Source: Nocardioides sp. S5 (lineage in GTDB: Bacteria > Actinomycetota > Actinomycetes > Propionibacteriales > Nocardioidaceae). Taken from it: DNA of 64,000 bases. The translations under genes were made by a program, and so were the position numbers. The stretch spans positions 3,720,001-3,784,000 of the forward strand of contig NZ_CP022296.1 of assembly GCF_017310035.1 (NCBI RefSeq). Direction: 5' to 3'. The notes under the pieces were generated by a model that did not search any database, was not told where the DNA came from, and saw only the letters and a program-made list of their open reading frames with translations. Below, piece by piece: positions 10,164 through 20,868 of the stretch (positions are counted from its first letter, which is position 1; each line of letters begins with the position of its first letter).

Positions 10164-10729
10164 GCCCGCTCGACGTGCCGCTGCCCATCGCGACCGAGCG
10201 GCTGCTCCTGCGAGCGCACGGTCCGGACGACCTCGATGACCTCCTGGCCTTCCACAGCGATCCGGACGTGGTCCGATTCGTCCCCTGGCCGGTGCGCGAC
10301 CGCGTGGCCACCGGCGAGACGCTGGCGGTCAAGCTCGACCAGGCCGAGCTGCGCGAGCCCGGGCAGTGGCTGGTGCTGGCCGTCGAGCAGCGCGAGACCG
10401 GCCGCGTCATCGGCGAGGTGCTGCTGAAGTGGGCCTCCGAGCGCCAGGGCGAGCTGGGCTTCGCCTTCGCCCACGACGTCCACGGGCAGGGGTACGCCGC
10501 CGAGGCCGCGACCGCGGTGCTCGACCTCGCCTTCGACGGGCTGGGGTTCCACCGCGTCAGCGCCGTCGTCATCGAGGGCAACGACGCGTCCGCCCGTCTG
10601 CTCGGTCGCCTCGGGTTCCGCCAGGAGGCGCGCCACGTCGACGGCGCGCACTTCAAGGGCGTCTGGGCCACCCAGCTGGTGTTCGCCCTCCTGGAGGACG
10701 ACTGGCGCGAGCCCTCAGCCGTCGGCTGA
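10160..10729 (+). CDS. GNAT-family N-acetyltransferase (RimJ/RimL type)
   Basis: 189 residues from GTG 10160. The fold is Acetyltransf_3: IATERLLLRAHGPDDLDDLLAF at the N-terminus, GELGFAFAHDVHGQGYAAEAATAVLD near residue 97 with the acetyl-CoA pyrophosphate loop (Q-G-Y-A), and NDASARLLGRLGFRQE near residue 140. Members acetylate protein N-termini or small amines; the target is unknown. It overlaps the VOC gene by 4 bp. Its last 15 bp overlap the end of the convergent alpha/beta hydrolase gene. Confidence 0.9.
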   Translation: MSPLDVPLPIATERLLLRAHGPDDLDDLLAFHSDPDVVRFVPWPVRDRVATGETLAVKLDQAELREPGQWLVLAVEQRETGRVIGEVLLKWASERQGELGFAFAHDVHGQGYAAEAATAVLDLAFDGLGFHRVSAVVIEGNDASARLLGRLGFRQEARHVDGAHFKGVWATQLVFALLEDDWREPSAVG

Positions 10730-11563
10730 CATGAACTCCCGCAGCACCCGCGCGAAGCGGTCGGGGTCGTCGAGGTGCGGGAAGTGCCCGGCCCCCTCGA
10801 ACAGCTCGACCCGGCAGCCCGGCACGGCCCGCTGCGCGCTGAGCGCGTGCCAGGCGGGGATCATCCGGTCCTTCGACCCCCACACGATCAGCGTCGGCGG
10901 CGGGGTCACCGCGCCGAGGTGGTCGTGGGCGCTGATGCTCTGCCCACCGAAGTCGATCACCGCGCGGGTGGTGGCCAGGAAGGCGCGGCGGCTCTGGCGG
11001 TCGCCGAGGGAGGTGAAGCCGCGCCAGATCGCGCCGATGTCGGCGCCCGGCTTCCAGCCGACCTTCTGCGCGCTGCGGCCCACCGCCTCCACCTTGTCGA
11101 GCACCGGCGCCGACGCGATCACGCTCAGCACCTGCTCGGCGCCGGGGAGGGTCGCCGAGCGCAGCACGAGGTTGACCTCGCGCCCGAGGCCGCCGCTCGA
11201 GACGAGCACCAGGCGGTCCACCCGCTCGGGGAAGAGGTAGTAGAACTGCATCGCGATCCCGCCGCCGAGCGAGTGCCCGACGAGGGTGACGCGGTCGATG
11301 CCGAGGTGGTCGAGCAGGTCGCGCAGCGTGGCGGCGTGCGAGCTCAGCGAGTAGTCGCCGGTCGGCTTCGCCGAGGCGCCGTGGCCGAAGAGGTCCGGCA
11401 CCACCACGCGGTGGTCCTCGTCGACCTCGTCGACCAGGTGGGCCCACTGCCGCTGCGAGCCGAGGATGCCGTGGATGAAGAGGACAGCGGGACCCTCGCC
11501 GCTGTCGACGTACGAGAGCTCGTGGCCGTGGAGCACGACCGTGTCCGGCGCCAGTCGGGTCAT
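10715..11563 (-). CDS. Alpha/beta-fold hydrolase
   Basis: 282 residues from ATG 11563, preceded by AAGGA. The alpha/beta hydrolase core is complete: oxyanion HGILGSQRQW near residue 31, the nucleophile elbow GHSLGGGIAMQ with Ser near residue 98, the acid Asp in GSKDRMIPAWH, and the His in GAGHFPHLDDPDRF near the C-terminus. No signal peptide. Substrate is unclear; relatives include haloalkane dehalogenase-like, epoxide hydrolase-like and MhpC-like enzymes. It is the last core-type gene before the accessory region starting about 11.7 kb, and a copy of the ychF 3' end lies 130 bp upstream of it. Confidence 0.9.
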   Translation of the reverse strand: MTRLAPDTVVLHGHELSYVDSGEGPAVLFIHGILGSQRQWAHLVDEVDEDHRVVVPDLFGHGASAKPTGDYSLSSHAATLRDLLDHLGIDRVTLVGHSLGGGIAMQFYYLFPERVDRLVLVSSGGLGREVNLVLRSATLPGAEQVLSVIASAPVLDKVEAVGRSAQKVGWKPGADIGAIWRGFTSLGDRQSRRAFLATTRAVIDFGGQSISAHDHLGAVTPPPTLIVWGSKDRMIPAWHALSAQRAVPGCRVELFEGAGHFPHLDDPDRFARVLREFMSADG

Positions 11564-11694
11564 CGTGGGGTCCTTGCGGTCGTGGGTGGTTACTCCACGG
11601 TAGCGGGGAACCGTCGGGTCGTGGACCTCCGACCTGGGCAACCCGAGCGTTCCCCAGACCTGTCACCGGGGCTGGCCCCGTCCTCCCGCGTCCC

Positions 11695-11713
11695 TCACAC
11701 GTTGAAGCGGAAC
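11695..11713. repeat. Left ychF-end-like repeat (candidate att core)
   Basis: TCACACGTTGAAGCGGAAC differs by one base from the ychF stop region at 19681-19699. Read on the minus strand it encodes FRFNV followed by a stop, the conserved YchF C-terminus, with no gene attached. This is what a displaced attachment site would look like. Confidence 0.55.
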
Positions 11714-11771
11714 GAAAACCGGGGGTTTCGGGTGTTGACGGTCACCGCTGGTTGAGACCGGAGAAGGCGGT

Positions 11772-11788
11772 CTGACCTGCGGAAACGC
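11772..11788. repeat. 17-bp exact repeat, copy 1
   Basis: CTGACCTGCGGAAACGC, identical to 12744-12760, which is part of a hairpin terminator behind the tRNA fragment. The two copies flank the toxin-antitoxin pair at 11915-12474 in the same orientation. Confidence 0.6.
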
Positions 11789-11840
11789 GTTTGCGAGACC
11801 GTTGGACGTCGTCGGTGAGAATCGGTCTCCGCCGGACTTC

Positions 11841-11859
11841 TTGCGGACTATTTGCGGAC
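11841..11859. repeat. Spaced TGCGGAC repeat, left copy
   Basis: TTGCGGACT-ATT-TGCGGAC. The same spaced motif with a different 3-base spacer occurs at 19619-19637 near the other island border, in the same orientation. It could be an arm-type recombinase site. Confidence 0.5.
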
Positions 11860-11914
11860 CGCTGGACGACCCGAGACCCTCCGGATCTGGTCGAAAGTCG
11901 GCGGCCGTGGCGGT

Positions 11915-12232
11915 TCATTCGTGGCGGAGCGACGCCTCCCAATCCTGGCCGCCGTGGAACACACCGAGGACGTTCACCACGAGCCCACCGGAGGACTCGT
12001 CGACTTCGTAGGCCATCAGCGTGCGCTGCTTGAAGGTGGTCGTCCGCATGCCCGGTCTGACGTCGTCGCGCGCTCGGCCAGCGCGAGGGAAGACGAGGAT
12101 GCCGTCGATGTAATCGAGGATCGCCGAGACGAAGCGCTCTGCCACGTCCGGCGACGCCTTCTCGGTGATCCATGCGTCGAGAGCGTGCAGCTGCTGCTGG
12201 GCCTGAGGGGTGTAGTTGATCCGGCCCGTCAT
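11915..12232 (-). CDS. RelE/ParE-family toxin
   Basis: 105 residues from ATG 12232, which overlaps the antitoxin stop as ATGA. The fold is RelE/ParE: INYTPQAQQQLHALDAWI at the N-terminus, AERFVSAILDYIDGILVFPRAGRARDDVRPGMRTTTFKQRTLMAYEVD in the middle, and VNVLGVFHGGQDWEASL at the C-terminus. RelE types cut ribosome-bound mRNA and ParE types inhibit gyrase; sequence alone does not separate them here, though the F-P-x-A-G and G-V-x-H-G-Q segments look more ParE-like. It sits behind a PF09720-type antitoxin gene, close to the left border of the island, where it may stabilise the element. Confidence 0.85.
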   Translation of the reverse strand: MTGRINYTPQAQQQLHALDAWITEKASPDVAERFVSAILDYIDGILVFPRAGRARDDVRPGMRTTTFKQRTLMAYEVDESSGGLVVNVLGVFHGGQDWEASLRHE

Positions 12233-12474
12233 AGACGGGCGGCCCACTTGGCCGCGAAGCTGGCACGGACGGTCTCAGCAGGGATCGCTTTGGATGGGTC
12301 CGCCTTAAGCCCGTCGTAGGCGGCGGCGGCCTCGGAGTGCAGCCACGAATCCGAGCCAAGGTCGAACGCCTCCTGCGGGTCGACTGATTCGAGCAATCGG
12401 AGAGCGACGTGCTTGCGCACGTCAGGAGGCAGGGACATCCCGGCCTCGTAGAACTCCGATTCGCTCAGCGCCAT
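12229..12474 (-). CDS. Addiction module antitoxin (Unstab_antitox type)
   Basis: 81 residues. It fits the short 'addiction module' antitoxin family (PF09720-like): MSLPPDVRKHVALRLLESVD near residue 13, then Trp44 in DSWLHSEAAAAYDGLKADPSKAIPAETV. Such proteins wrap and neutralise a RelE/ParE toxin and are degraded by proteases. The gene comes first and overlaps the toxin gene by 4 bp, the usual order. Unlike many antitoxins it has no obvious ribbon-helix-helix DNA-binding N-terminus, so how the pair is autoregulated is not clear. Confidence 0.8.
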   Translation of the reverse strand: MALSESEFYEAGMSLPPDVRKHVALRLLESVDPQEAFDLGSDSWLHSEAAAAYDGLKADPSKAIPAETVRASFAAKWAARL

Positions 12475-12689
12475 GACGTCAGATTACTCCGAGCGCCGAG
12501 GTCAGCCCCAGAAGATCGGGACGCCGCTGCTGCTGATGTGGTCCAGTAGGGCCTCGACCTCCGGTGAAACGGTCGGTACTGGTCGGTCGTCGTCGGTCAC
12601 CACCGGATGGCGGCGCCCCCCACTCTCGGCGTTTGCGCAGGTCAGCGGCTCGTTCGCCCAGTGGGCGCATCAAGCGATAGACGCAAAGC
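12475..12689. other. Non-coding stretch upstream of the first toxin-antitoxin pair
   Basis: Short ORFs cross this region on both strands, but none resembles a protein family. It contains the antitoxin promoter side and, at 12629-12658, a copy of the tRNA-terminator sequence in inverted orientation (about 26 of 29 bases match the reverse complement of 12732-12760). Confidence 0.5.
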
Positions 12690-12729
12690 CGACGTGATTA
12701 GGTCGTCGGTTCGATTCCGACAGGCGGCT
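12690..12729 (+). pseudogene. tRNA 3' fragment (T arm and acceptor 3' strand)
   Basis: The T arm is perfect: GTCGG 12705-12709, loop TTCGATT 12710-12716, CCGAC 12717-12721. It is followed by AGGCGGC (12722-12728) as the acceptor 3' strand and T as discriminator. The 5' partner GCCGCCT, the D arm and a proper anticodon arm are missing upstream, so this is not a complete gene. The acceptor strand is like that of some actinobacterial tRNA-Thr genes (weak guess). Such 3' tRNA pieces are typical scars of integrative elements. Confidence 0.55.
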
Positions 12730-12740
12730 CTGGCGAACAG

Positions 12741-12770
12741 CCCCTGACCTGCGGAAACGCAGGGCAGGGG
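12741..12770 (+). terminator. Hairpin terminator behind the tRNA fragment
   Basis: CCCCTGACCTGC 12741-12752 pairs with GCAGGGCAGGGG 12759-12770 (12 bp, one mismatch) around GGAAAC. The position right after the tRNA acceptor strand fits the native terminator of the original tRNA gene. Confidence 0.65.
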
Positions 12771-13348
12771 CGGTTCGGTTCTGGTGGTCGCGCGATGCGC
12801 TGGCCTCACGGCTCTGCCCGACACCGACGTCGCTCTCCTCTGCGACGGACCCCTCGCCGGCTGAGCGCTCGCGGCCGGCATCCTGTCCGTGTGCCGATAG
12901 GCCTCGCTCCGCTCGGCAACGCGGCGTGGCGTTGTGTCGCGACCTGGACGTGCGAGGTGTCAACGGTGCGTCGGCGCAGCGATCGTTGTGTGCGCAGCGA
13001 GATGTTCCATGCCGCACGGGCGACGCGCACGAACGCAACGCCCCGGAACGCCAACGCCCCGTCATCGCTGCGACGCGCAACGCGTCTCCCGTCACGGCAA
13101 CGGATCGCAACCAAGACCCGCCCACGGCGCCTAGCGGGACGGAGGGCAAGTTGACACAGTTGCGCTGCCATGGAACCGCGCTGGCTCTCTCGATGACCAC
13201 CGGTGAACCAGTGCCGCTCCAGGCTTGCGCCTGGTGTTGCCTGGCCCCCCTCGTGATCGGCCCGTCGGGGATCGTCAACGTGGTGCGGGTGTCAAGGCGG
13301 TCGGGTCCGACGGCTCGGCGGGGCGCGATCGTCTCGTGCGTTGGCGGA
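12771..13348. other. No recognisable gene
   Basis: About 580 bp without a convincing coding region. Overlapping ORFs exist in several frames but give low-complexity Arg-rich translations with no family features. Degenerate mobile DNA is the most likely content. Confidence 0.5.
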
Positions 13349-13660
13349 CTACGGGAGCTTGGACGCGAGGACGTCGGCCGCCAGGATCTCGGGTGCTGCG
13401 CCGAGGAGGTGCTGGTTGGCCATCAGGGCTGCGACGATGGCGCCGTTGGCGTGGGCGTCGCGAGCGGCCTCGTCGGGGAATGCATCGAAGATCCAAAAGG
13501 TGTCGGCGTGGGTTCTAGCCGCGAACCAGACAATCGTTCCCACTTCTTCGTTGGCGAGTGCGACAGCGCCGGCGAGCAGATCGGCGAGCGCGTCGTGCTG
13601 TCCATCGGCCGCGACGATCTTGGCGACGAAGGCATACGGAAGTGATGCGGGTGTGGACAT
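13349..13660 (-). CDS. Antibiotic biosynthesis monooxygenase (ABM) domain protein
   Basis: 103 residues, the standard length of single ABM domains (dimeric alpha/beta barrels related to YgiN and ActVA-Orf6, acting on quinones or other small substrates without cofactors). Features: YAFVAKIVAADGQHDALADLLAG at the N-terminus, NEEVGTIVWFAARTHADTFWIFDAFPDEAARDAHANG with the typical Trp/Phe-rich strand, and HANGAIVAALM. A clear AAGGAG lies 8 bases before ATG 13660. It diverges from a GlxA-type regulator gene with 107 bp between the starts, so it is the likely target of that regulator. Confidence 0.85.
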   Translation of the reverse strand: MSTPASLPYAFVAKIVAADGQHDALADLLAGAVALANEEVGTIVWFAARTHADTFWIFDAFPDEAARDAHANGAIVAALMANQHLLGAAPEILAADVLASKLP

Positions 13661-13767
13661 GAGGGGTTCTCCTTGAAGTCGGGGTTCTTCGTGGGGCGAG
13701 TTCAGCGTATGACGAGCGAGGGCCGATGGGGAGTGGCGTATACGACAGTATTGCTATTGTTCGCGCC

Positions 13768-14709
13768 ATGCGTATCGGACTGATCGCGATCGACGGCTGC
13801 TTCGGTTCGGCTGTCGCGTCGGTCATCGACATCGTGCGGGTGGCCGACGGAGCCCGCGGCGATATCGACCCGCGGATCGACCCGATCGAACTCGCCATCC
13901 TCGGACCGAAACGGCGAGTGACCACGACGGCATCGATGACCCTGTCGGTTGACCACCCGCTGTCGGCGTCCGGAGAGTTCGACGTGGTCGTCGTCCCTGC
14001 GCTTGGAACCCTCACGGCCGCCGCTACCAACGACGCCCTCCAGAGCCGAGATGCTCGTTCGGTCATCGCCTCGCTCGGGCGCCTCGACGACGCGACCACC
14101 CGGATCGCCGCGGCGTGCACCGGCGTGTTCGCCGTCGCCGAGACCGGACGGATGCATCATCGGCGGGCGACGACCAGCTGGTTCCTGGGACCGGAGTTCC
14201 TGAAGCGCTATCCGACCGTCGCCCTCGATCTCGACACCATGGTCGTCGTGGACGGGAACCTCGTCACCGCCGGCGCCGCGTTCGCCCACATCGACCTCGC
14301 GCTCTCACTCGTGCGATCGATCAGCCCCGACCTGGCCCAACATGTCGCCAAGCTCCTCCTCATCGACGAGCGTCCGTCGCAGGCGGCCTTCGTCGCCTAC
14401 GAACATCTCCGGCACGATGACCCGATCGTCGTCGAGTTCGAACGCTTCGTGCGCGCCCGCCTGGACGAACCGTTCAACGTCGCCTTCGTCGCGCAGTCGC
14501 TCGGCACCAGCCGGCGCACCCTCGAACGACGAGTCCGTGCGGCGCTCAACCTCACTCCGCTCGGCTTCGTCCAACGGCTTCGCATCGAACGAGCTCGGCA
14601 CCTCTCAGCAACCACGGACCTCACCTCCGCCGAGATCGCGCTACGGGTCGGCTACGCGAACGCCGAGACTCTGCGCTCCCTCCTGCGCAGGGAGCGACGC
14701 CGTTCCTGA
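13768..14709 (+). CDS. GlxA-family AraC-type transcriptional regulator
   Basis: 313 residues from ATG 13768. The N-terminal DJ-1/PfpI-like domain (about 1-170) has FDVVVVPALGTL, AACTGVFAVAETG with the elbow Cys, and RRATTSWFLGPEF, the usual GlxA order. The C-terminal AraC HTH pair (about 215-313) has FNVAFVAQSLGTSRRTLERRV and LTSAEIALRVGYANAETLRSLLRRE. The protein ends soon after the second HTH. It probably senses a small metabolite and controls the divergent ABM monooxygenase gene; the 107-bp gap includes GTATAC and several AT-rich steps that could hold the operator. Target and ligand are unknown. Confidence 0.9.
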   Translation: MRIGLIAIDGCFGSAVASVIDIVRVADGARGDIDPRIDPIELAILGPKRRVTTTASMTLSVDHPLSASGEFDVVVVPALGTLTAAATNDALQSRDARSVIASLGRLDDATTRIAAACTGVFAVAETGRMHHRRATTSWFLGPEFLKRYPTVALDLDTMVVVDGNLVTAGAAFAHIDLALSLVRSISPDLAQHVAKLLLIDERPSQAAFVAYEHLRHDDPIVVEFERFVRARLDEPFNVAFVAQSLGTSRRTLERRVRAALNLTPLGFVQRLRIERARHLSATTDLTSAEIALRVGYANAETLRSLLRRERRRS

Positions 14710-14790
14710 CCTATCGCCATGCCTGTAGCCGGTGTCCTAGCGCCCGGTTGGAACCACCTCTCAGCACGTCGCGTCGACGCTCCTGCGTCG

Positions 14791-15027
14791 CCCCTGGACG
14801 GCCCACTCGACACGCCCGCAGCACCCCTCATCGCGGCCGGGTGCGACGTGGTCACCGTCCAACGTTCGCTCGGCCACGCGAAGGCAACCACGACGCTGAA
14901 CACCTACGCACACCTCTGGCCGACTGCCGAGGACCGTACGAGGAAGGCGGCAGAGTCGATCATGGCCGCGTCGCTCGGCGAGCCAACCGCGGACCCGGTC
15001 AGGTTGGTGACGAGTCCGGCCGAGTGA
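14791..15027 (+). pseudogene. Truncated tyrosine recombinase (C-terminal fragment)
   Basis: From about 14810 the frame reads like the end of a phage-type integrase: LIAAGCDVVTVQRSLGHAKATTTLNTYAHLWP, with the box II Gly-His and the nucleophile Tyr, then AEDRTRKAAESIMAASL. The catalytic Arg box and the whole N-terminal and core-binding parts are absent; the preceding in-frame residues from 14719 do not look like an integrase. It is therefore a remnant, the only recombinase trace in the island. It lies just downstream of the GlxA-type regulator. Confidence 0.75.
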
Positions 15028-15337
15028 GCCGTGGCCCCTGATCGCAGACGCACGTCGCCCGCGCGTGAGCCGGTGTCACGTCACAGCGCCGCCTGTCGGG
15101 GACGCTCGCAGCTTCTGGACCTGCCGGCATGAGTGCGCGACGGTCGGCCAATCTCCTCGAGGACTCGGTCTTTCGCGACTGGACCATTCTTACCTCTCCA
15201 GGTTTCACCACGAGCGAGTCGGCGAGTGGTGACGTCGCCGCTACACCAGGCGGCTAGGCGGCTAGGGCGATAGACGTGCACGAGAGCCTCGGTCTTTCCC
15301 TTACCCCCGAGCATCATGGGTTCCACGCTCGGTCCGA
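15028..15337. other. No recognisable gene
   Basis: 310 bp between the recombinase fragment and the stop of the serine hydrolase. Only short ORFs without family features are present; no strong hairpin was noticed. Confidence 0.45.
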
Positions 15338-16513
15338 TCAGAGCGCGGCGTACACCGCCTCCTCAAAGTCTCCGTAGAGCTTCCAGGCCTCGTGACGCGT
15401 GATGAAGGGCAGCGAGTTGGTGTAGATCGAGGCGCAGATACCGGTCGTGCGGTCGATGAAGAAGTGGGTGTTGAAGAGCCCTGCCCACGACCCGGTGCCG
15501 GCGCGGCGGCGGCCAGGGATGTCGTGGCTGTTGAGCAGGAGTCCGTAGCCCCATTTGTGGCCGGGTCCGGCATACATCGTGTCGGTGATCGGCGGGTCGG
15601 CAGTCGGGATCTCGGCGGGGAAGTCGAGGTCGCCGATTTGGTTGGTGAAGGCGGCGTCGACCGTGGCTTCGTCCAGGATGCGCATGCCGTTGAGCTCGCC
15701 ACCTCGCAGGAGCGCCTGCTCGAAGCGGATGTAGTCGCGGGGGGTGGAGAAGAGGCCGTGGCCGCCCGCCCACCAGTCGGGTTCGGGGTTGAGGATGTTG
15801 CCAGCAGACGCCCATGTGCCGTCCTCGCCCTTCACGTGGACGGTGACGGCGTTGTCCATCTGCGTCTGGTCCGGGTGAAATGTGGTGCTGCTCATGCCGA
15901 GCGGGCCAGCGATGCCCTCGTCAATGACTGCGTCCAGCTTCTTGCCGGCGACGGCCTCCACGACGCGGCCGAGCCAGTCGGTGTTGATGCCGTACACGTA
16001 CTTCTCCCCGGGGTGCGCCGTCATGGGCGCACCGAAGGCGGCCATCGACCCGGGTACGACGTTCGGGACGCCAGTCGCCGCTTCGTACTTCACGAGCTGG
16101 TCGTTCCAGAACCAGTACCCCAGGCCAGAGGTGTGCGTCACGAGGTGGTGAACCGTGGCCTTCGTGCGCGGCTCGACCAGGATGGGCTCGTCCCCGTCGA
16201 ACCCCTCGAGCACCTTGACGTCGGCGAAGTCCGGGACGTACTCCTCCACCGGAGCGTCGAAGTCGAGCTCGCCACGTTCCTTCTGCTGCAGCGCAGCGAC
16301 GGTGCAGACCATCTTGGTCATCGACATGATGCGGAAGTGGGTGGAGGTGCCGACCGGGTCATCAGACTCTCCCGCTATGCGGATCCCGGCGCCGCCCTCG
16401 TAAAGGACGCCGTCGCGGTCGGCGACGATCGCTGCGACGTGCGGCACTGCGCCGTCCGACACGGCGTCGGCGAGCACGCGGTCGATCCCGGATCCGTCGA
16501 TGTGTGTGGCCAT
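15338..16513 (-). CDS. Serine hydrolase, beta-lactamase class C / EstB-like
   Basis: 391 residues, no signal peptide, with a GAGG ribosome site before ATG 16513. The penicillin-binding fold is shown by SMTK (catalytic Ser and Lys near residue 64) and YGIN (Tyr and Asn, YVYGINTDWL near residue 168). A later HKWGYGLLLN and GSWAGLFNTHFFIDR give the third conserved strand. Cytoplasmic members of this group are usually carboxylesterases acting on short esters rather than beta-lactamases. It diverges from an HSL-type esterase gene about 200 bp away; together with the PucR regulator behind it they look like an ester-degrading set. Confidence 0.88.
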   Translation of the reverse strand: MATHIDGSGIDRVLADAVSDGAVPHVAAIVADRDGVLYEGGAGIRIAGESDDPVGTSTHFRIMSMTKMVCTVAALQQKERGELDFDAPVEEYVPDFADVKVLEGFDGDEPILVEPRTKATVHHLVTHTSGLGYWFWNDQLVKYEAATGVPNVVPGSMAAFGAPMTAHPGEKYVYGINTDWLGRVVEAVAGKKLDAVIDEGIAGPLGMSSTTFHPDQTQMDNAVTVHVKGEDGTWASAGNILNPEPDWWAGGHGLFSTPRDYIRFEQALLRGGELNGMRILDEATVDAAFTNQIGDLDFPAEIPTADPPITDTMYAGPGHKWGYGLLLNSHDIPGRRRAGTGSWAGLFNTHFFIDRTTGICASIYTNSLPFITRHEAWKLYGDFEEAVYAAL

Positions 16514-16714
16514 GGCTGCTCCTCAGAATGCGGGGACGGTTTCTCCGTCCGGCTGCCGACCACCGTCTTCCAACCGGTGGCGAGTGGGAACCGACAAGAC
16601 GTCTGGGTCGGAGGAGTGACGACCGCCACATGGCGGTGGCAGGCTGGCGAGCCAGCCGATCTACTGAGACGCCCAAACTGCGATTCGCTGATTGCACAAG
16701 ATGCGGAGAGACCT

Positions 16715-17689
16715 GTGACAGCCGAGGTGCAGCCCGTCGCGCGCCCGCCGTTCGACGCCGAGCTGCGGGCCGGCCTGACGGTGGTCGGCGGCATGTTCCC
16801 GCCGACGATCACGCCCGACCTCATTGATTTCATGCGTACGTCCTACGCGGCGCCGCCGATCGATGACCTCCTCCTTGCCAAGGGCATCGTCTGCACCGAC
16901 GACGTGGTCGTCGCTCCGGACGGGCATGAGGTCGCCGTGTCGGTGCTGCGTCCCAAGGATGCGCCTGGTGAGCGCCCGGGCGTGGTGTATGCGCACTCGG
17001 GCGGGCTGATGTTCGGCGACCGCTTCAGCGGGATCGACCTGGTCCTCGACTGGGTGTCCGACTTCGGCGCGGTCCTCGTGACAGTGGAGTATCGCTTGGC
17101 ACCCGAGCACCGGCACCCGTACCCCTTCGACGACATGTACACCGCGCTCGAGGCCGCTGCCTCGCGTGCAGGGGATTGGGGCCTGCGGCGTGACCGCCTC
17201 GTGGTCGCAGGAGCGAGCGCCGGAGGTGGGCTCGCAGCAGGCCTTGCGCTCGCAGCCCGCGACCGGGACGGACCGGCGCTACGGGGTCAGGTACTCGACT
17301 ACCCGATGCTCGACGACCGCGGCACCACGGCCTCGACCCACCAGTTCGACGGCATCGGCGTGTGGGACCGCGTCAGCAACGAGACCGGCTGGACCGCTCT
17401 GCTCGGCGACGCCCGCGGCACCGAGGCGGTGTCAGAATACGCCGCCCCCGCCCGCGCAAGGGACCTCTCGGGCCTGCCTCCGGCGTTCATCGACGTGGGT
17501 GCCGCCGAGATCTTCCGCGACGAGGCGATCGCCTACGCAGACGGGATCTGGCGTGCGGGCGGTGACGCGGAGCTGCACGTGTGGTCGGGGGCCTTCCACG
17601 CATGCGACATCTTTGCCGCCCATACCTCCGTCGGCCGCGCCATGATCCGGGCTAGGAACGACTGGGTCGAGCGGATCATCGCCGACTGA
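16715..17689 (+). CDS. Alpha/beta hydrolase, HSL-family esterase
   Basis: 324 residues from GTG 16715, preceded by GGAGAG. Hormone-sensitive-lipase-type features: VVYAHSGGLMFGDR near residue 93 (HSGG in place of the usual HGGG), VEYRLAPEHRHPYPFDD near residue 125, nucleophile elbow GASAGGGLAAG near residue 167, the acid in the IDVGAAEIFRDEAIAYADGI segment, and His in GAFHACDIF. The oxyanion variant HSGG is slightly unusual. It is the first gene of a pair with the PucR-type regulator, 36 bp downstream. Confidence 0.9.
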   Translation: MTAEVQPVARPPFDAELRAGLTVVGGMFPPTITPDLIDFMRTSYAAPPIDDLLLAKGIVCTDDVVVAPDGHEVAVSVLRPKDAPGERPGVVYAHSGGLMFGDRFSGIDLVLDWVSDFGAVLVTVEYRLAPEHRHPYPFDDMYTALEAAASRAGDWGLRRDRLVVAGASAGGGLAAGLALAARDRDGPALRGQVLDYPMLDDRGTTASTHQFDGIGVWDRVSNETGWTALLGDARGTEAVSEYAAPARARDLSGLPPAFIDVGAAEIFRDEAIAYADGIWRAGGDAELHVWSGAFHACDIFAAHTSVGRAMIRARNDWVERIIAD

Positions 17690-17725
17690 GAACCGGACTA
17701 CGCTCGCTCGCAGAAGGAGGTCGTC

Positions 17726-18796
17726 GTGCAGGAGCTGCTCGGCCGCATTGCCCGGCTCGACCCGAGCGCGAGCCTCGGGCTGCGCGTCATCGCCTGCTTC
17801 GACGAGCTCATGGTCGGCAACGTCAACACGCGCGCGCTGCTTGCCGCTGCCGCATCGCTCTCTGGCTGCGTCGCTGGCTTCCACTCCGAGACGCCGGCCC
17901 GGACCGTGCGCATCGATCACCGCGGCCATCACGCGGACGGCGTACGACCGGAGGTGGACCCGGCCTTCCAGCAGGATGTGAGCGACGGACTGACAGTGTG
18001 GTTGGAGCGGAACGGGGCGCGGCAGCCCAACGACGCCATCGTGCTGGAGCGACTCGCCCTGGCGGTTCGCATGCGGCACGGCCGCGGGCGTGAGAGCGAC
18101 CACCGCCGCGACCTGAGCCTGCTGCTCGATCCCGACGTGGACGTTCAGGCCCGCTGCGTCTCGGCGATCACCCTCGGACTGCGTCCGGGGACGCGCTACC
18201 GAGTGGTCTGTGCGCCGCTCTTCGCCGTGTGGCCCGAGCACCCGCAGGGCCCCGAGGACGTCGTTGCAACGCGTTTCGGTGCAATCCACGCGCTGGTCCT
18301 ACCGGCCAGTGCACACGAGGTGAGCGCTGTACCCAGCGGGGTCGGGGTGGCCACCGAGGTGGAGGACCTTCACCACTCCTTCCGCACAGCTCTCGTCGCG
18401 CTGCGGCTGTGCGATCCGCCGGCGGTCGGGTCGGTCCTGGCCGACGACTTCGGCGGACTGATCGGGCTGCTCGCCGACGCGCCGGACGGCTCCTTCCAGC
18501 CCGACGTCGCGCTGGTCGACGCGGTGATGGCCTATGCGTGGGGCGCGGAGACCTTGGCTTCGGTCGTCCGGTCGCACTCGTTGCGGCAGGCAGCTCGCGA
18601 AGCCGGCGTGCACCACAGCACGATGCAGTCGCGCCTCGAGACCGTGAACGCGACCCTCGGGTTCGACCCATTCGAGGGCTACGGGCGCACACGCCTTGGA
18701 ACGGCGTACCTCGTCTGGCGCCTGCGCCACTCGCGCGTCTTGGACCTACCCGCGCCCACCGCCACACCTGAGGGTTCTGACGGTCGGTTCGGCTAG
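17726..18796 (+). CDS. PucR-family helix-turn-helix regulator
   Basis: 356 residues starting at GTG 17726, five bases after a perfect AAGGAGG. The C-terminus (about 270-335) is the PucR/CdaR-type HTH: SLRQAAREAGVHHSTMQSRLETVNATLGFDPFEGYGRTRLGTAYLVWRL. The N-terminal half resembles no ligand domain I can name; it has a central region around IHALVLPASAHEVSAVPSGVGV like GGDEF-related PucR middle domains. Placement right behind the HSL esterase and next to the divergent serine hydrolase suggests that it controls these hydrolases. Confidence 0.8.
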   Translation: MQELLGRIARLDPSASLGLRVIACFDELMVGNVNTRALLAAAASLSGCVAGFHSETPARTVRIDHRGHHADGVRPEVDPAFQQDVSDGLTVWLERNGARQPNDAIVLERLALAVRMRHGRGRESDHRRDLSLLLDPDVDVQARCVSAITLGLRPGTRYRVVCAPLFAVWPEHPQGPEDVVATRFGAIHALVLPASAHEVSAVPSGVGVATEVEDLHHSFRTALVALRLCDPPAVGSVLADDFGGLIGLLADAPDGSFQPDVALVDAVMAYAWGAETLASVVRSHSLRQAAREAGVHHSTMQSRLETVNATLGFDPFEGYGRTRLGTAYLVWRLRHSRVLDLPAPTATPEGSDGRFG

Positions 18797-18914
18797 ATCC
18801 GCGATCACACCGGTATCTGAACGCCCCCGGCTATTGCGTCTTTCCGCCGCGATCGGACCGGTCCCGAGTGAATGTCAGCGGCGGTGGGGCCTGGTTGTCA
18901 CAGGGCCCGGGGCG

Positions 18915-19172
18915 CTATCCATAGTGGTAGCGACACGCGGCTATGCGCACTTCCTGATCCGCGATCTTGTACACCAGACGGTGTTCATCGGTTATGCGTC
19001 GCGACCAGTAGCCGGCGAAATCGTGCTTGAGCGGCTCCGGCTTGCCGATGCCCTGGTTGCCGTTGCGCTGGATGTCTGCGAGGAGGGTGTTGATCCGTTT
19101 GAGGACCTTGCGATCCTGTGCCTGCCACCACAGGTAGTCCTGCCGGGCGTTCTCGTCCCAGACGAGCAGCAC
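18915..19172 (-). CDS. yoeB: YoeB-family mRNA interferase toxin
   Basis: 85 residues from GTG 19172, the exact YoeB length. It reads VWDENARQDYLWWQAQDRKVLKRIN at the start and GKPEPLKHDFAGYWSRRITDEHRLVY in the core, and ends ACRYHYG with the catalytic His. The Glu of GKPEPL and the Arg of SRRI are also present, so the active site looks complete. YoeB binds the ribosome and cuts mRNA during translation. The start lies one base after the antitoxin stop. It is the second toxin-antitoxin pair in the island, close to the right border. Confidence 0.92.
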   Translation of the reverse strand: MLLVWDENARQDYLWWQAQDRKVLKRINTLLADIQRNGNQGIGKPEPLKHDFAGYWSRRITDEHRLVYKIADQEVRIAACRYHYG

Positions 19173-19173
19173 G

Positions 19174-19431
19174 TCAGTCGGTCTCGAGCAGGTCGTGAGC
19201 TTCGCCGTGACCGGCTTCCAACCTCTCCATCGCATCCAGGAGTCGTCGAGCATTCGCAGGTGAGCGCATCAGGTAGGCAGTTTCGCGCAGGGACTCGTAG
19301 TCCTCGAGCGAGACGATGACAACGGGCTCGTGACCGGCGCGGGTGATGACGACCTCTTCACGGTCGTCGGTGACGCTGTCGAGTACCTCGGCGTAGCGGG
19401 CTCGGGACTCGGTGTAGCTCATCGTCTTCAT
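19174..19431 (-). CDS. yefM: YefM/Phd-family antitoxin
   Basis: 85 residues from ATG 19431. The YefM/Phd N-terminus is clear: MSYTESRARYAEVLDSV, DREEVVITRAGHEPVVIVSLEDYESLRETAYLM, then a polar toxin-binding tail ending EAHDLLETD. It blocks YoeB and represses the operon. Just upstream lie two TGTAC-type palindromes (see 19444-19461), which match the known YefM operator core. An in-frame extension to 19482 is possible but would run through that operator. Confidence 0.92.
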   Translation of the reverse strand: MKTMSYTESRARYAEVLDSVTDDREEVVITRAGHEPVVIVSLEDYESLRETAYLMRSPANARRLLDAMERLEAGHGEAHDLLETD

Positions 19432-19443
19432 GGTCCACCTTTC

Positions 19444-19461
19444 TGTACAGAAAAGTGTACG
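19444..19461. promoter_or_regulatory. YefM-type operator
   Basis: TGTACA at 19444-19449 and TGTACG at 19456-19461, 12 bases centre to centre, located 13-30 bases upstream of the antitoxin ATG. The E. coli YefM-YoeB operator is built from a long and a short palindrome with TGTACA cores at this same spacing (recalled from the literature), so autoregulation of this pair is likely conserved. Confidence 0.7.
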
Positions 19462-19618
19462 TCCGTGTTGGCGTAGCGGCAAGCCGATTGGTCAGCCCTG
19501 CTCGACCGCGGCGCCGAATCCGTCGCCAGAGAGGCACCTCGCGGGTGGGTCACTGGCAGCACCCGGGGTCCGGATCGGCCCTCCGAGCGGCCAGCTCGAG
19601 CCCATCACGCCAGGATTG

Positions 19619-19637
19619 TTGCGGACTCTGTGCGGAC
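19619..19637. repeat. Spaced TGCGGAC repeat, right copy
   Basis: TTGCGGACT-CTG-TGCGGAC, matching 11841-11859 outside the spacer. It lies 43 bp from the ychF stop, just inside the right island border. Confidence 0.5.
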
Positions 19638-19680
19638 TGGAAGCGGTCACACCCCGCCCGACCTGCAGTTTTGCGTCGAT

Positions 19681-20757
19681 TCAGACGTTGAAGCGGAACT
19701 CCACCACGTCGCCGTCGGCCATGACGTAGTCCTTGCCCTCCATGCGCACCTTGCCGGCCTCCTTGGCCTTGAGCATGGAGCCGGCAGCCATCAGGTCGTC
19801 GAAGGAGACGACCTCGGCCTTGATGAAGCCCTTCTGGAAGTCGGTGTGGATGACACCGGCGGCCTCCGGGGCGGTGGCGCCCTTCCTGATCGTCCAGGCC
19901 CGCGTCTCCTTGGGGCCGGCGGTCAGGTAGGTCTGGAGGCCGAGGGTGTCGAAGCCGACGCGGGCGAGCTGGTCGAGGCCGGACTCGGTGATGCCCATCT
20001 CCGCGAGCATCTCGTGCGCCATCTCGTCGTCGTCCATCTCGGCGAGGTCGGCCTCGAACTTGGCGTCGAGGAAGATCGCCTCGGCCGGCGCGATGATCGC
20101 GCGCATCTTGTCCTTGAGGGCCTCGTCGGCGAGCTCGTCGGCGTCGCAGTTGAAGACGTAGATGAACGGCTTGGCCGTCAGCAGCGACAGCTCGCGCAGC
20201 AGGGAGCGGTCGATGTCGGTGGCGATGACCGGGGTGCCGGACTCCAGCGCGTCCTTGGCGGCCTTCGCGGCCTCGAGGTTCGCGACGAGGTCCTTGACCT
20301 TGCGCGACTCCTTCTCCAGGCGGGCGATGGCCTTCTCGACGGTCTCGAGGTCGGCGAAGATCAGCTCGGTCTGGATGGTCGAGATGTCGTTGGCGGGGTT
20401 GACCTCGCCGTCGACGTGGGTGACGTCCTCGTCGCGGAAGACGCGCGTGACCTGGCAGATCGCGGCGGACTCGCGGATGTGGGCGAGGAACTTGTTGCCC
20501 AGGCCCTCGCCCTGCGAGGCGCCGCGGACGATGCCCGCGATGTCGACGAACTCGACGGTGGCCGGCAGCTGCTTGGCCGACTCGAACACCTCCGCAAGCT
20601 GCGGCAGCCGCTCGTCGGGGACCCCCACGACGCCCACGTTGGGCTCGATCGTCGCGAACGGGTAGTTCGCCGCGAGGACGTCGTTCTTGGTCAGTGCGTT
20701 GAAGAGCGTCGACTTGCCCGCGTTGGGGAGACCGACGATGCCGATGGTGAGAGCCAC
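19681..20757 (-). CDS. ychF: Redox-regulated ATPase YchF (OLA1 family)
   Basis: 358 residues from GTG 20757; the in-frame extension further upstream is spurious. P-loop GLPNAGKSTLFNALT near residue 8, switch region FATIEPNVGVV, Walker B-like FVDIAGIVRGASQGEGLGNKFL, and the NxxE-type base motif in FIYVFNCDADEL, which explains the family's preference for ATP. The C-terminal TGS-like domain ends DVVEFRFNV, standard for the family. YchF binds ribosomes and tunes oxidative stress responses. The last 19 bases, including the stop, recur at 11695, which suggests that the 3' end served as an integration site; the gene itself is complete. Confidence 0.97.
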   Translation of the reverse strand: MALTIGIVGLPNAGKSTLFNALTKNDVLAANYPFATIEPNVGVVGVPDERLPQLAEVFESAKQLPATVEFVDIAGIVRGASQGEGLGNKFLAHIRESAAICQVTRVFRDEDVTHVDGEVNPANDISTIQTELIFADLETVEKAIARLEKESRKVKDLVANLEAAKAAKDALESGTPVIATDIDRSLLRELSLLTAKPFIYVFNCDADELADEALKDKMRAIIAPAEAIFLDAKFEADLAEMDDDEMAHEMLAEMGITESGLDQLARVGFDTLGLQTYLTAGPKETRAWTIRKGATAPEAAGVIHTDFQKGFIKAEVVSFDDLMAAGSMLKAKEAGKVRMEGKDYVMADGDVVEFRFNV

Positions 20758-20868
20758 GGGCGGGGAGTCTACGGGCGTGGCGCTCCCCCGGACGAAACGT
20801 GCCCCGGCGCCGCGGAGGGGCCGCCGGCGCAGTGACGGCCCTCCACGGCCACCTGCAAGACTCGCCCC

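Follow-up and report, generated by a model that had tools for sequence, protein, structure and literature searches.

Evidence for a decayed integrative element at the ychF 3' end of Nocardioides sp. S5, with related insertions in other Actinomycetota

Integrative mobilizable elements (IMEs) are described at the 3' ends of housekeeping genes, as with SGI1 in trmE, in a source whose available portion does not mention ychF (PMC5704250). Among actinomycete integrative and conjugative elements (AICEs) of the tyrosine type, the vast majority are placed at tRNA 3' ends, the pSLS subfamily excepted, in the portion of the source available (PMC3218068). In the available portions of further papers ychF is either absent or appears as a phylogenetic marker, a gene-list entry or a host gene (PMC11706625, PMC13046425, PMC4289293, PMC8460829, PMC1796617, PMC6985430), and in our literature search, with subscription journals mostly outside its coverage, no paper was encountered that identifies the 3' end of ychF as a site of integration. 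Here we describe an island at positions 11695-19699 of a 64-kb stretch of the Nocardioides sp. S5 genome (NZ_CP022296.1, 3,720,001 to 3,784,000; hereafter the window), which is very likely a decayed integrative, probably mobilizable, element inserted at the 3' end of ychF.

Repeats and paired motifs at ychF 3' ends in the genus

The initial annotation had pointed to a recurrence of the ychF end, with a single mismatch, and to a spaced motif just inside both borders of the island, and both observations were borne out. The 19-mer at the ychF 3' end (plus strand, TCAGACGTTGAAGCGGAAC) recurs at the left border as TCACACGTTGAAGCGGAAC, with 18/19 bases in common, and the one mismatch corresponds to a synonymous Val codon (GTC or GTG) ahead of the TGA stop. 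The spaced motif TTGCGGACTNNNTGCGGAC has exactly two perfect matches in the 64 kb, at 11841 and 19619; when up to three mismatches were permitted it matched four times, compared to a mean of 1.04 in shuffled sequence, four matches being reached in 2/100 shuffles. In a refinement of the initial annotation, this motif looks like paired integrase arm-type sites. Both the term arm-type site and the recombination chemistry expected below belong to general knowledge of tyrosine integrases.

We surveyed 121 stretches downstream of ychF within the genus (the window and sets of 40, 20 and 60 genomes; 0.2-60 kb each, 2.58 Mb in total), drawn from 145 same-genus genomes with a ychF match, those left out including a few with fragmentary ychF. 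A second same-strand 19-mer with at most two mismatches was identified downstream of ychF in 28/121 genomes, or in 29/121 with either Val codon permitted. Searching the opposite strand gave 0/121, as did the pattern in reverse and 30 shuffled versions of it, each taken singly. An explanation of the repeats by chance or codon bias, in an otherwise ordinary variable stretch of chromosome, has some appeal, given a core of just 15 exact nt that codes for conserved residues, and given relatives that carry extra genes here without a second copy; the survey counts led us to reject chance repeats, and with class-specific motif pairs at fixed distances from both ends, and an empty site, also standing against it, this explanation retains a practically negligible probability.

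Two classes of motif pair were distinguished 3' of ychF, each in 16/121 genomes: class A (TGCCCTCA pairs) and class B (AGTCCGCA pairs, equivalent to the motif of the initial annotation and found in the window). The repeats of both classes start at GTTCCGCTTCAACGT. A second core was present at 15/32 class A/B sites, where same-class motifs were located 123-136 bp ahead of it in 6/7 class-A genomes and 136-147 bp ahead of it in 8/8 class-B genomes, no cross-class motifs being found at the second cores of either group; the spacing between left motif pair and core in the window equals that in the 7 other class-B genomes having a second core. At the level of sequence, paired, class-specific motifs at a fixed distance are found on both sides of the core, as arm-type sites would be. 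Integrase-like open reading frames (ORFs) were detected at 11/16 class-A, 8/16 class-B and 1/89 other sites with a hidden Markov model (HMM) that was itself seeded with 8 of the proteins so detected; the single match outside the two classes (L065) is an integrase beside ychF accompanied by a class-A arm carrying an indel. When 391 genomes from the order were searched, the combination of ychF end and class-B arms matched in 17 genomes spanning 5/40 genera and that with class-A arms in 9 genomes of a single genus (reversed control, 0). At L187 (G021, contig C6), class-B arms accompany an extended ychF tail (...DTYVMADGDVVEFRFNV), the contig being different from that of the other ychF match in this genome.

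The further claim that the insert restored the end of ychF held for some inserts. At four class-A loci (L056, L097, L144, L161) ychF stops with TAA and the displaced copy with TGA, and in G079 ychF ends in TTCAGGTTCAATGTCTAG, with the usual tail, TTCCGCTTCAACGTGTGA, found 0.55 kb away behind an insert; L109, L120 and L142 resemble G079, and inserts of this type lack class A/B arms. Judged by these stop codon and tail differences, the inserted DNA supplies the ychF end in such cases. For class B, to which the window belongs, the close similarity of the copies prevents this distinction, and the tail was presumably element-supplied.

Empty sites, two-ended relatives and the integrase clade

Empty sites in close relatives were predicted to hold one 19-mer and to join the alpha/beta hydrolase gene to the left of the island directly to ychF. 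The outcome was favourable: a single 19-mer (within 20 kb) was found in G141, where the hydrolase starts ~0.3 kb past ychF, and in G045, where a reductase-like gene (named by eye) directly follows ychF and precedes the hydrolase. In G117, whose island is nearly identical to that of the window, this gene separates the left 19-mer from the hydrolase, and the G117 copy aligns to G045 (84% over 723 bp) from 14 bp past the ychF stop, followed by the hydrolase. It is also found just past a degenerate second copy (17/19) in G096 and beyond the hydrolase in G074, and is missing beside the left repeat of the window. In correction of the initial annotation, the reductase-like gene was originally situated between ychF and the hydrolase and has been lost in the window. 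Three further genomes (G128, G129, G074) have the hydrolase within 0.9-1.4 kb of ychF and one 19-mer, but other sequence in between.

Larger elements with both ends were identified in three genomes: a 48-kb class-B element in G113, where each end has arms and an exact 19-mer, and elements of 22 kb in G123 and 50 kb (class A) in G046, each with cores and paired motifs at both ends. Adjoining the integrase in G113 and G123 is a TrwC relaxase, that of G113 also matching the MobF model. The protein scans behind these assignments covered 6/46 predicted genes in G113, whose cargo has a metabolic look by eye, and 6/18 in G123, where restriction-modification genes were detected; neither an FtsK/SpoIIIE (TraB) translocase nor Rep was seen among these scanned proteins or the 10 ORFs scanned in the window. 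At the opposite extreme of size, L144 (G009) harbours a minimal class-A element of 0.9 kb, possibly a trans-mobilized mini-element. Each of its ends has a core and arms, and its sole content, judged by eye, is a VapBC-like pair.

Closest to the window island is a locus of N. glacieisoli (L275), to which window positions 14826-20799 align at 98.4% (L275 10918-16893). There the aligned stretch continues into an intact 375-aa integrase, followed by the reductase-like gene and then the hydrolase. We regard this locus as decisive evidence on the window island. Of the features expected of a tyrosine-integrase element, end repeats (18/19), empty sites (G045, G141) and an integrase were found, the last as a remnant in the window and intact in N. 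glacieisoli, G113 and G123.

Tyrosine integrases and gene 3'-end targets are also used by phages, which lends some weight to the view of the island as a prophage or satellite-phage remnant. Pneumococcal prophages, moreover, likewise integrate next to ychF, but as described in the available portions of three papers they do so on the upstream, promoter side of the gene, at an unrelated attB and not at the 3' end (PMC6375853, PMC10383233, PMC8637289). Other than the integrase, no phage gene was found among the 10 window ORFs scanned, no PHROGs scan having been made, and the proteins scanned in G113 and G123 (6/46 and 6/18 predicted genes) included TrwC relaxases and restriction-modification proteins. 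We regard a phage remnant as an improbable explanation.

Searching ychF 3' ends for other elements and integrases, as the initial annotation proposed, was productive within the genus and far outside it. A genome collection was scanned with the class-B integrase, the best 80 of 93 stretches corresponding to 78 loci. Of these, 46/78 contained ychF, convergent with the integrase in 46/46, and at 26/78 loci the integrase ended less than 400 bp from ychF, mostly at 53-99 bp. Hosts of ychF-associated integrases included Arthrobacter, Actinomadura, Saccharopolyspora, Microbacterium, Nocardiopsis and Amycolatopsis, as well as Actinoplanes, Mycolicibacterium, Pseudonocardia, Georgenia and Janibacter, and the ychF-labelled rows of the integrase tree covered at least 11 named families. 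Among the 32/78 loci without ychF, 5 have ~1 kb or less of contig past the integrase, and some others have a different conserved 3' end as neighbour: glnA in L294-L297 (Demequina; L295 by NCBIfam), yajQ in L272, L274, L279 and L280 (Microbacterium; L272 by NCBIfam), menB in L259 and L299 (both by NCBIfam), and rnpB in L288 and L292 (by Rfam; integrase located at the rnpB 3' end), the 1-2 loci tested by model for each target being supplemented by assignments made by eye from C-termini. These loci belong to more distant integrase relatives. In L231, L232 and L238, ARAGORN also predicted a tRNA-Ser gene that precedes the class-B integrase by ~0.8-0.9 kb.

In a tree of the integrases from 55 of the 78 loci (those with fewer than 280 matched residues being dropped) and 7 class-A integrases, 37 ychF rows, 11 target-unknown rows and 1 menB row formed one group (support 99/96), with the yajQ, glnA and rnpB rows outside it; the yajQ label of L276 was assumed, its contig stopping 146 bases past the integrase. 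Target labels clustered on the tree, as few label changes being seen in 0/200 shuffles, a clustering to which near-copies contribute. These results also bear on the alternative that ychF tails recombined, homologously or illegitimately, to create the island, with the integrase fragment as incidental debris. Such an origin would account for an integrase fragment bordering a foreign 2.27-kb fragment, and for the higher identity between window and G117 within the island (99.7% across the right 4.7 kb, including 0.3 kb of ychF, and 98.2% at the left end) than in the chromosomal flanks (92-97%), as homologous exchange could also produce. It fits poorly with the contiguity of the same cargo and an intact integrase in N. 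glacieisoli, with the proximity of related integrases to ychF and with the clustering of their targets, and we regard it as very improbable.

Several observations weigh against the preferred reading, insertion of an integrase-borne element at the ychF 3' end. No second core (at most two mismatches) was found at 17/32 class A/B sites, in stretches of 1.2-60 kb, and of 10 class A/B sites extended to 60 kb the far end appeared in 3 and in none of the other 7. Four loci (L035, L044, L047, L048) have extra genes between ychF and the hydrolase with no second 19-mer at up to three mismatches. The N. glacieisoli locus, likewise, shows no left core at up to three mismatches, and so falls short of a perfect two-ended picture; a search of G265 and of the L275 genome for the left end of the window also gave no match. 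The integrase HMM had no match at 13/32 class A/B sites, including the 50-kb element of G046, the integrases of Nocardioides class-B elements lie 1-8 kb from ychF and do not adjoin it, and no relaxase match was obtained among the 10 window ORFs scanned.

With these points taken into account, the decayed element of ~8 kb proposed by the initial annotation remains supported by the survey of second copies, the empty sites, the two-ended relatives and the N. glacieisoli integrase. In the mechanism we envisage, a tyrosine integrase would recombine a circular attP with the ychF 3' end through a short core (GTTCCGCTTCAACGT, ychF sense), the paired motifs of 11-bp period near each end serving as its arm-type sites. 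The element would carry its own copy of the final ychF codons, and YchF would stay whole because of this, the displaced tail marking the far end. Conjugal mobilization may have spread such elements; at a later stage transfer functions would have been lost, along with most of the integrase where the fragment of a repeated unit now sits (12551-14824). The window element is probably immobile by itself.

Contents and decay of the island, and other inserts at ychF

The features of the island and its borders are summarized in Table 1. Both toxin-antitoxin pairs of the initial annotation were recovered, the antitoxin of the ParE pair by a match below the Pfam cut-off. The recombinase fragment also proved real, the match being again below the cut-off, with the integrase limited to its final codons; this remnant shows 83-86% identity to the integrases of G113 and G053.

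Table 1. Features of the island at the ychF 3' end and its borders (window positions)
Feature	Position	Strand	Support and remarks
Alpha/beta hydrolase, chromosomal flank	10715..11641	-	As listed; likely ATG start near 11564; PF00561 E=2e-37; near ychF in empty sites
Left core repeat, displaced ychF tail (FRFNV-stop)	11695..11713	-	18/19; 15-nt core 11699-11713
Left second putative arm-type motif	11772..11785	-	TTTCCGCAGGTCAG
Left paired putative arm-type motif, class B	11841..11859		
ParE-family toxin	11915..12247	-	Pfam PF05016 E=6.7e-13
Putative antitoxin (addiction module component)	12229..12474	-	Pfam PF09720 E=3e-4, under Pfam's cut-off
Secondary insertion, 2.27 kb	12551..14824		Part of a repeated unit that is widespread; holds an ABM-like gene, an AraC/DJ-1-like gene and a copy of the tRNA-Thr 3' end
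tRNA-Thr(CGT) 3'-end copy, 34 nt	12699..12732	+	Within the 2.27-kb fragment
Tyrosine integrase remnant of the element	14825..15027	+	Last ~67 codons; PF00589 E=8.6e-4, under Pfam's cut-off
Cargo esterase, beta-lactamase fold, methyl acetate hydrolase-like	15338..16513	-	PF00144 E=1.2e-48; NF052559 E=2.5e-90 (under its cut-off)
Cargo alpha/beta hydrolase (Abhydrolase_3)	16715..17689	+	PF07859 E=8.5e-46 in longer ORF; start codon picked from sequence
Cargo PucR-type regulator	17726..18796	+	PF13556 E=8.8e-7
YoeB toxin	18915..19253	-	PF06769 E=6.5e-36
YefM/Phd antitoxin	19174..19482	-	TIGR01552 E=1.1e-12
Right paired putative arm-type motif, class B	19619..19637		Direct repeat with 11-bp period
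Right second putative arm-type motif, degenerate	19658..19666	-	GCAGGTCGG
Right core repeat, final 19 nt of ychF including stop	19681..19699	-	15 nt common to class A/B ends: 19685-19699
ychF, target gene (redox-regulated ATPase YchF)	19681..20757	-	NCBIfam TIGR00092 E=2.5e-129

Closer inspection of the secondary insertion showed that its unit recurs in 11 other genomes of the genus (118 searched, including that of the window), where a 171-bp probe matched at 96-100%. The left boundary of the unit is identical in all 11, and most of the left-flank pairs compared share 95-99% identity; the right boundary corresponds to window 14824 in 9/12 other genomes with a long match, falls within 3 bp of it in G117 and comes earlier in G005 and G037. 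In G117 the unit lies on another contig and the ychF island is without it. The integrase fragment was considered as part of this unit and rejected as such, homology to the unit mostly stopping at 14824 and that to the N. glacieisoli integrase beginning at 14826; the window integrase is truncated at 14825 by a separate repeated fragment, a further correction to the initial annotation. On either side of the tRNA-Thr 3'-end copy are TTTGCGCAGGTCAG-like motifs, inverted relative to each other. An integration event at tRNA-Thr in the window genome was rejected, no such motif being present beside its intact tRNA-Thr(CGT) gene (G000 C1, near 468.9 kb).

Other types of insert were also identified behind ychF. 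The YchF C-terminus reads VEFRFNV in 113/121 genomes and is altered in 8/121, all without class A/B arms, and most inserts other than class A/B share a repeat beginning further 5'. Six loci (L070, L109, L110, L120, L129, L130) hold inserts of ~0.35-2.2 kb with 1-2 genes, lacking both class A/B arms and any tyrosine recombinase close by. Each has a recoded or altered ychF tail and is closed by a displaced tail, which in L070 is the end of an ORF resembling a HIT protein by eye. PF00589 was not found near ychF in 13/14 genomes with non-A/B inserts, several of whose contigs end early, the remaining genome (G032) having one match ~19.6 kb off. In G032 a 12.6-kb insert is stacked on a class-B attachment site, and next to the displaced tail it has a gene for a large serine recombinase (L157 11493-12890; PF00239 E=8.3e-31, PF07508 E=2.9e-21); no full-length relative of this recombinase was found at the other loci of inserts lacking class A/B arms. 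A single recombinase for all ychF inserts was rejected on the grounds of these more 5' repeats and of the serine recombinase. Accretion was also evident, with an A end followed by a B end in L135 and L161, and another insert followed by a B end in L157 and L173.

The ychF 3' end among known integration targets

The kind of element described here is known, and the copy in the window represents it in an ordinary, decayed form; the widely spread ychF 3'-end target and its integrase clade are apparently undescribed. We tentatively suggest, with somewhat less than even confidence, that the ychF 3' end is a phylum-wide hotspot in Actinomycetota, served largely by a dedicated tyrosine-integrase clade whose arm sites diversify around a fixed core and architecture and, independently, by at least one element with a large serine recombinase. 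Since inserts overwrite the C-terminal codons of YchF, in some cases changing the protein, mobile elements may tune YchF. With this locus, the range of targets for actinobacterial elements extends to a highly conserved, translation-linked protein gene, and the altered YchF C-termini raise a testable question about effects on the host. A natural series of elements with the same core and different arms, and of related integrases at ychF, menB, yajQ, glnA and rnpB, should make the evolution of integrase targets and arm sites testable, and ychF integrases could become site-specific vectors for actinobacteria with few genetic tools.

The following comparisons refer to the available portions of the sources cited. 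The elements resemble IMEs of the SGI1 type in their single tyrosine integrase, in a 3'-end target kept whole by one direct repeat and in a cargo of toxin-antitoxin and restriction-modification genes, and differ from them in the target, ychF, in the MobF relaxase of intact actinobacterial relatives and in the decayed state of the window copy (PMC5704250). With AICEs they share a tyrosine integrase, actinobacterial hosts and direct-repeat attachment (att) sites; unlike AICEs they target a protein-coding gene and carry a TrwC relaxase, with FtsK and Rep not seen in a scan of proteins that was incomplete (PMC3218068). The decay and accretion of AICEs in Streptomyces offer a close parallel, comprising partial integrases, cargo, two direct repeats, empty sites and accretion at one site; no correlation between integrase sequence and site is reported there, whereas the integrases described here include one clade found mostly at ychF (PMC9513070).

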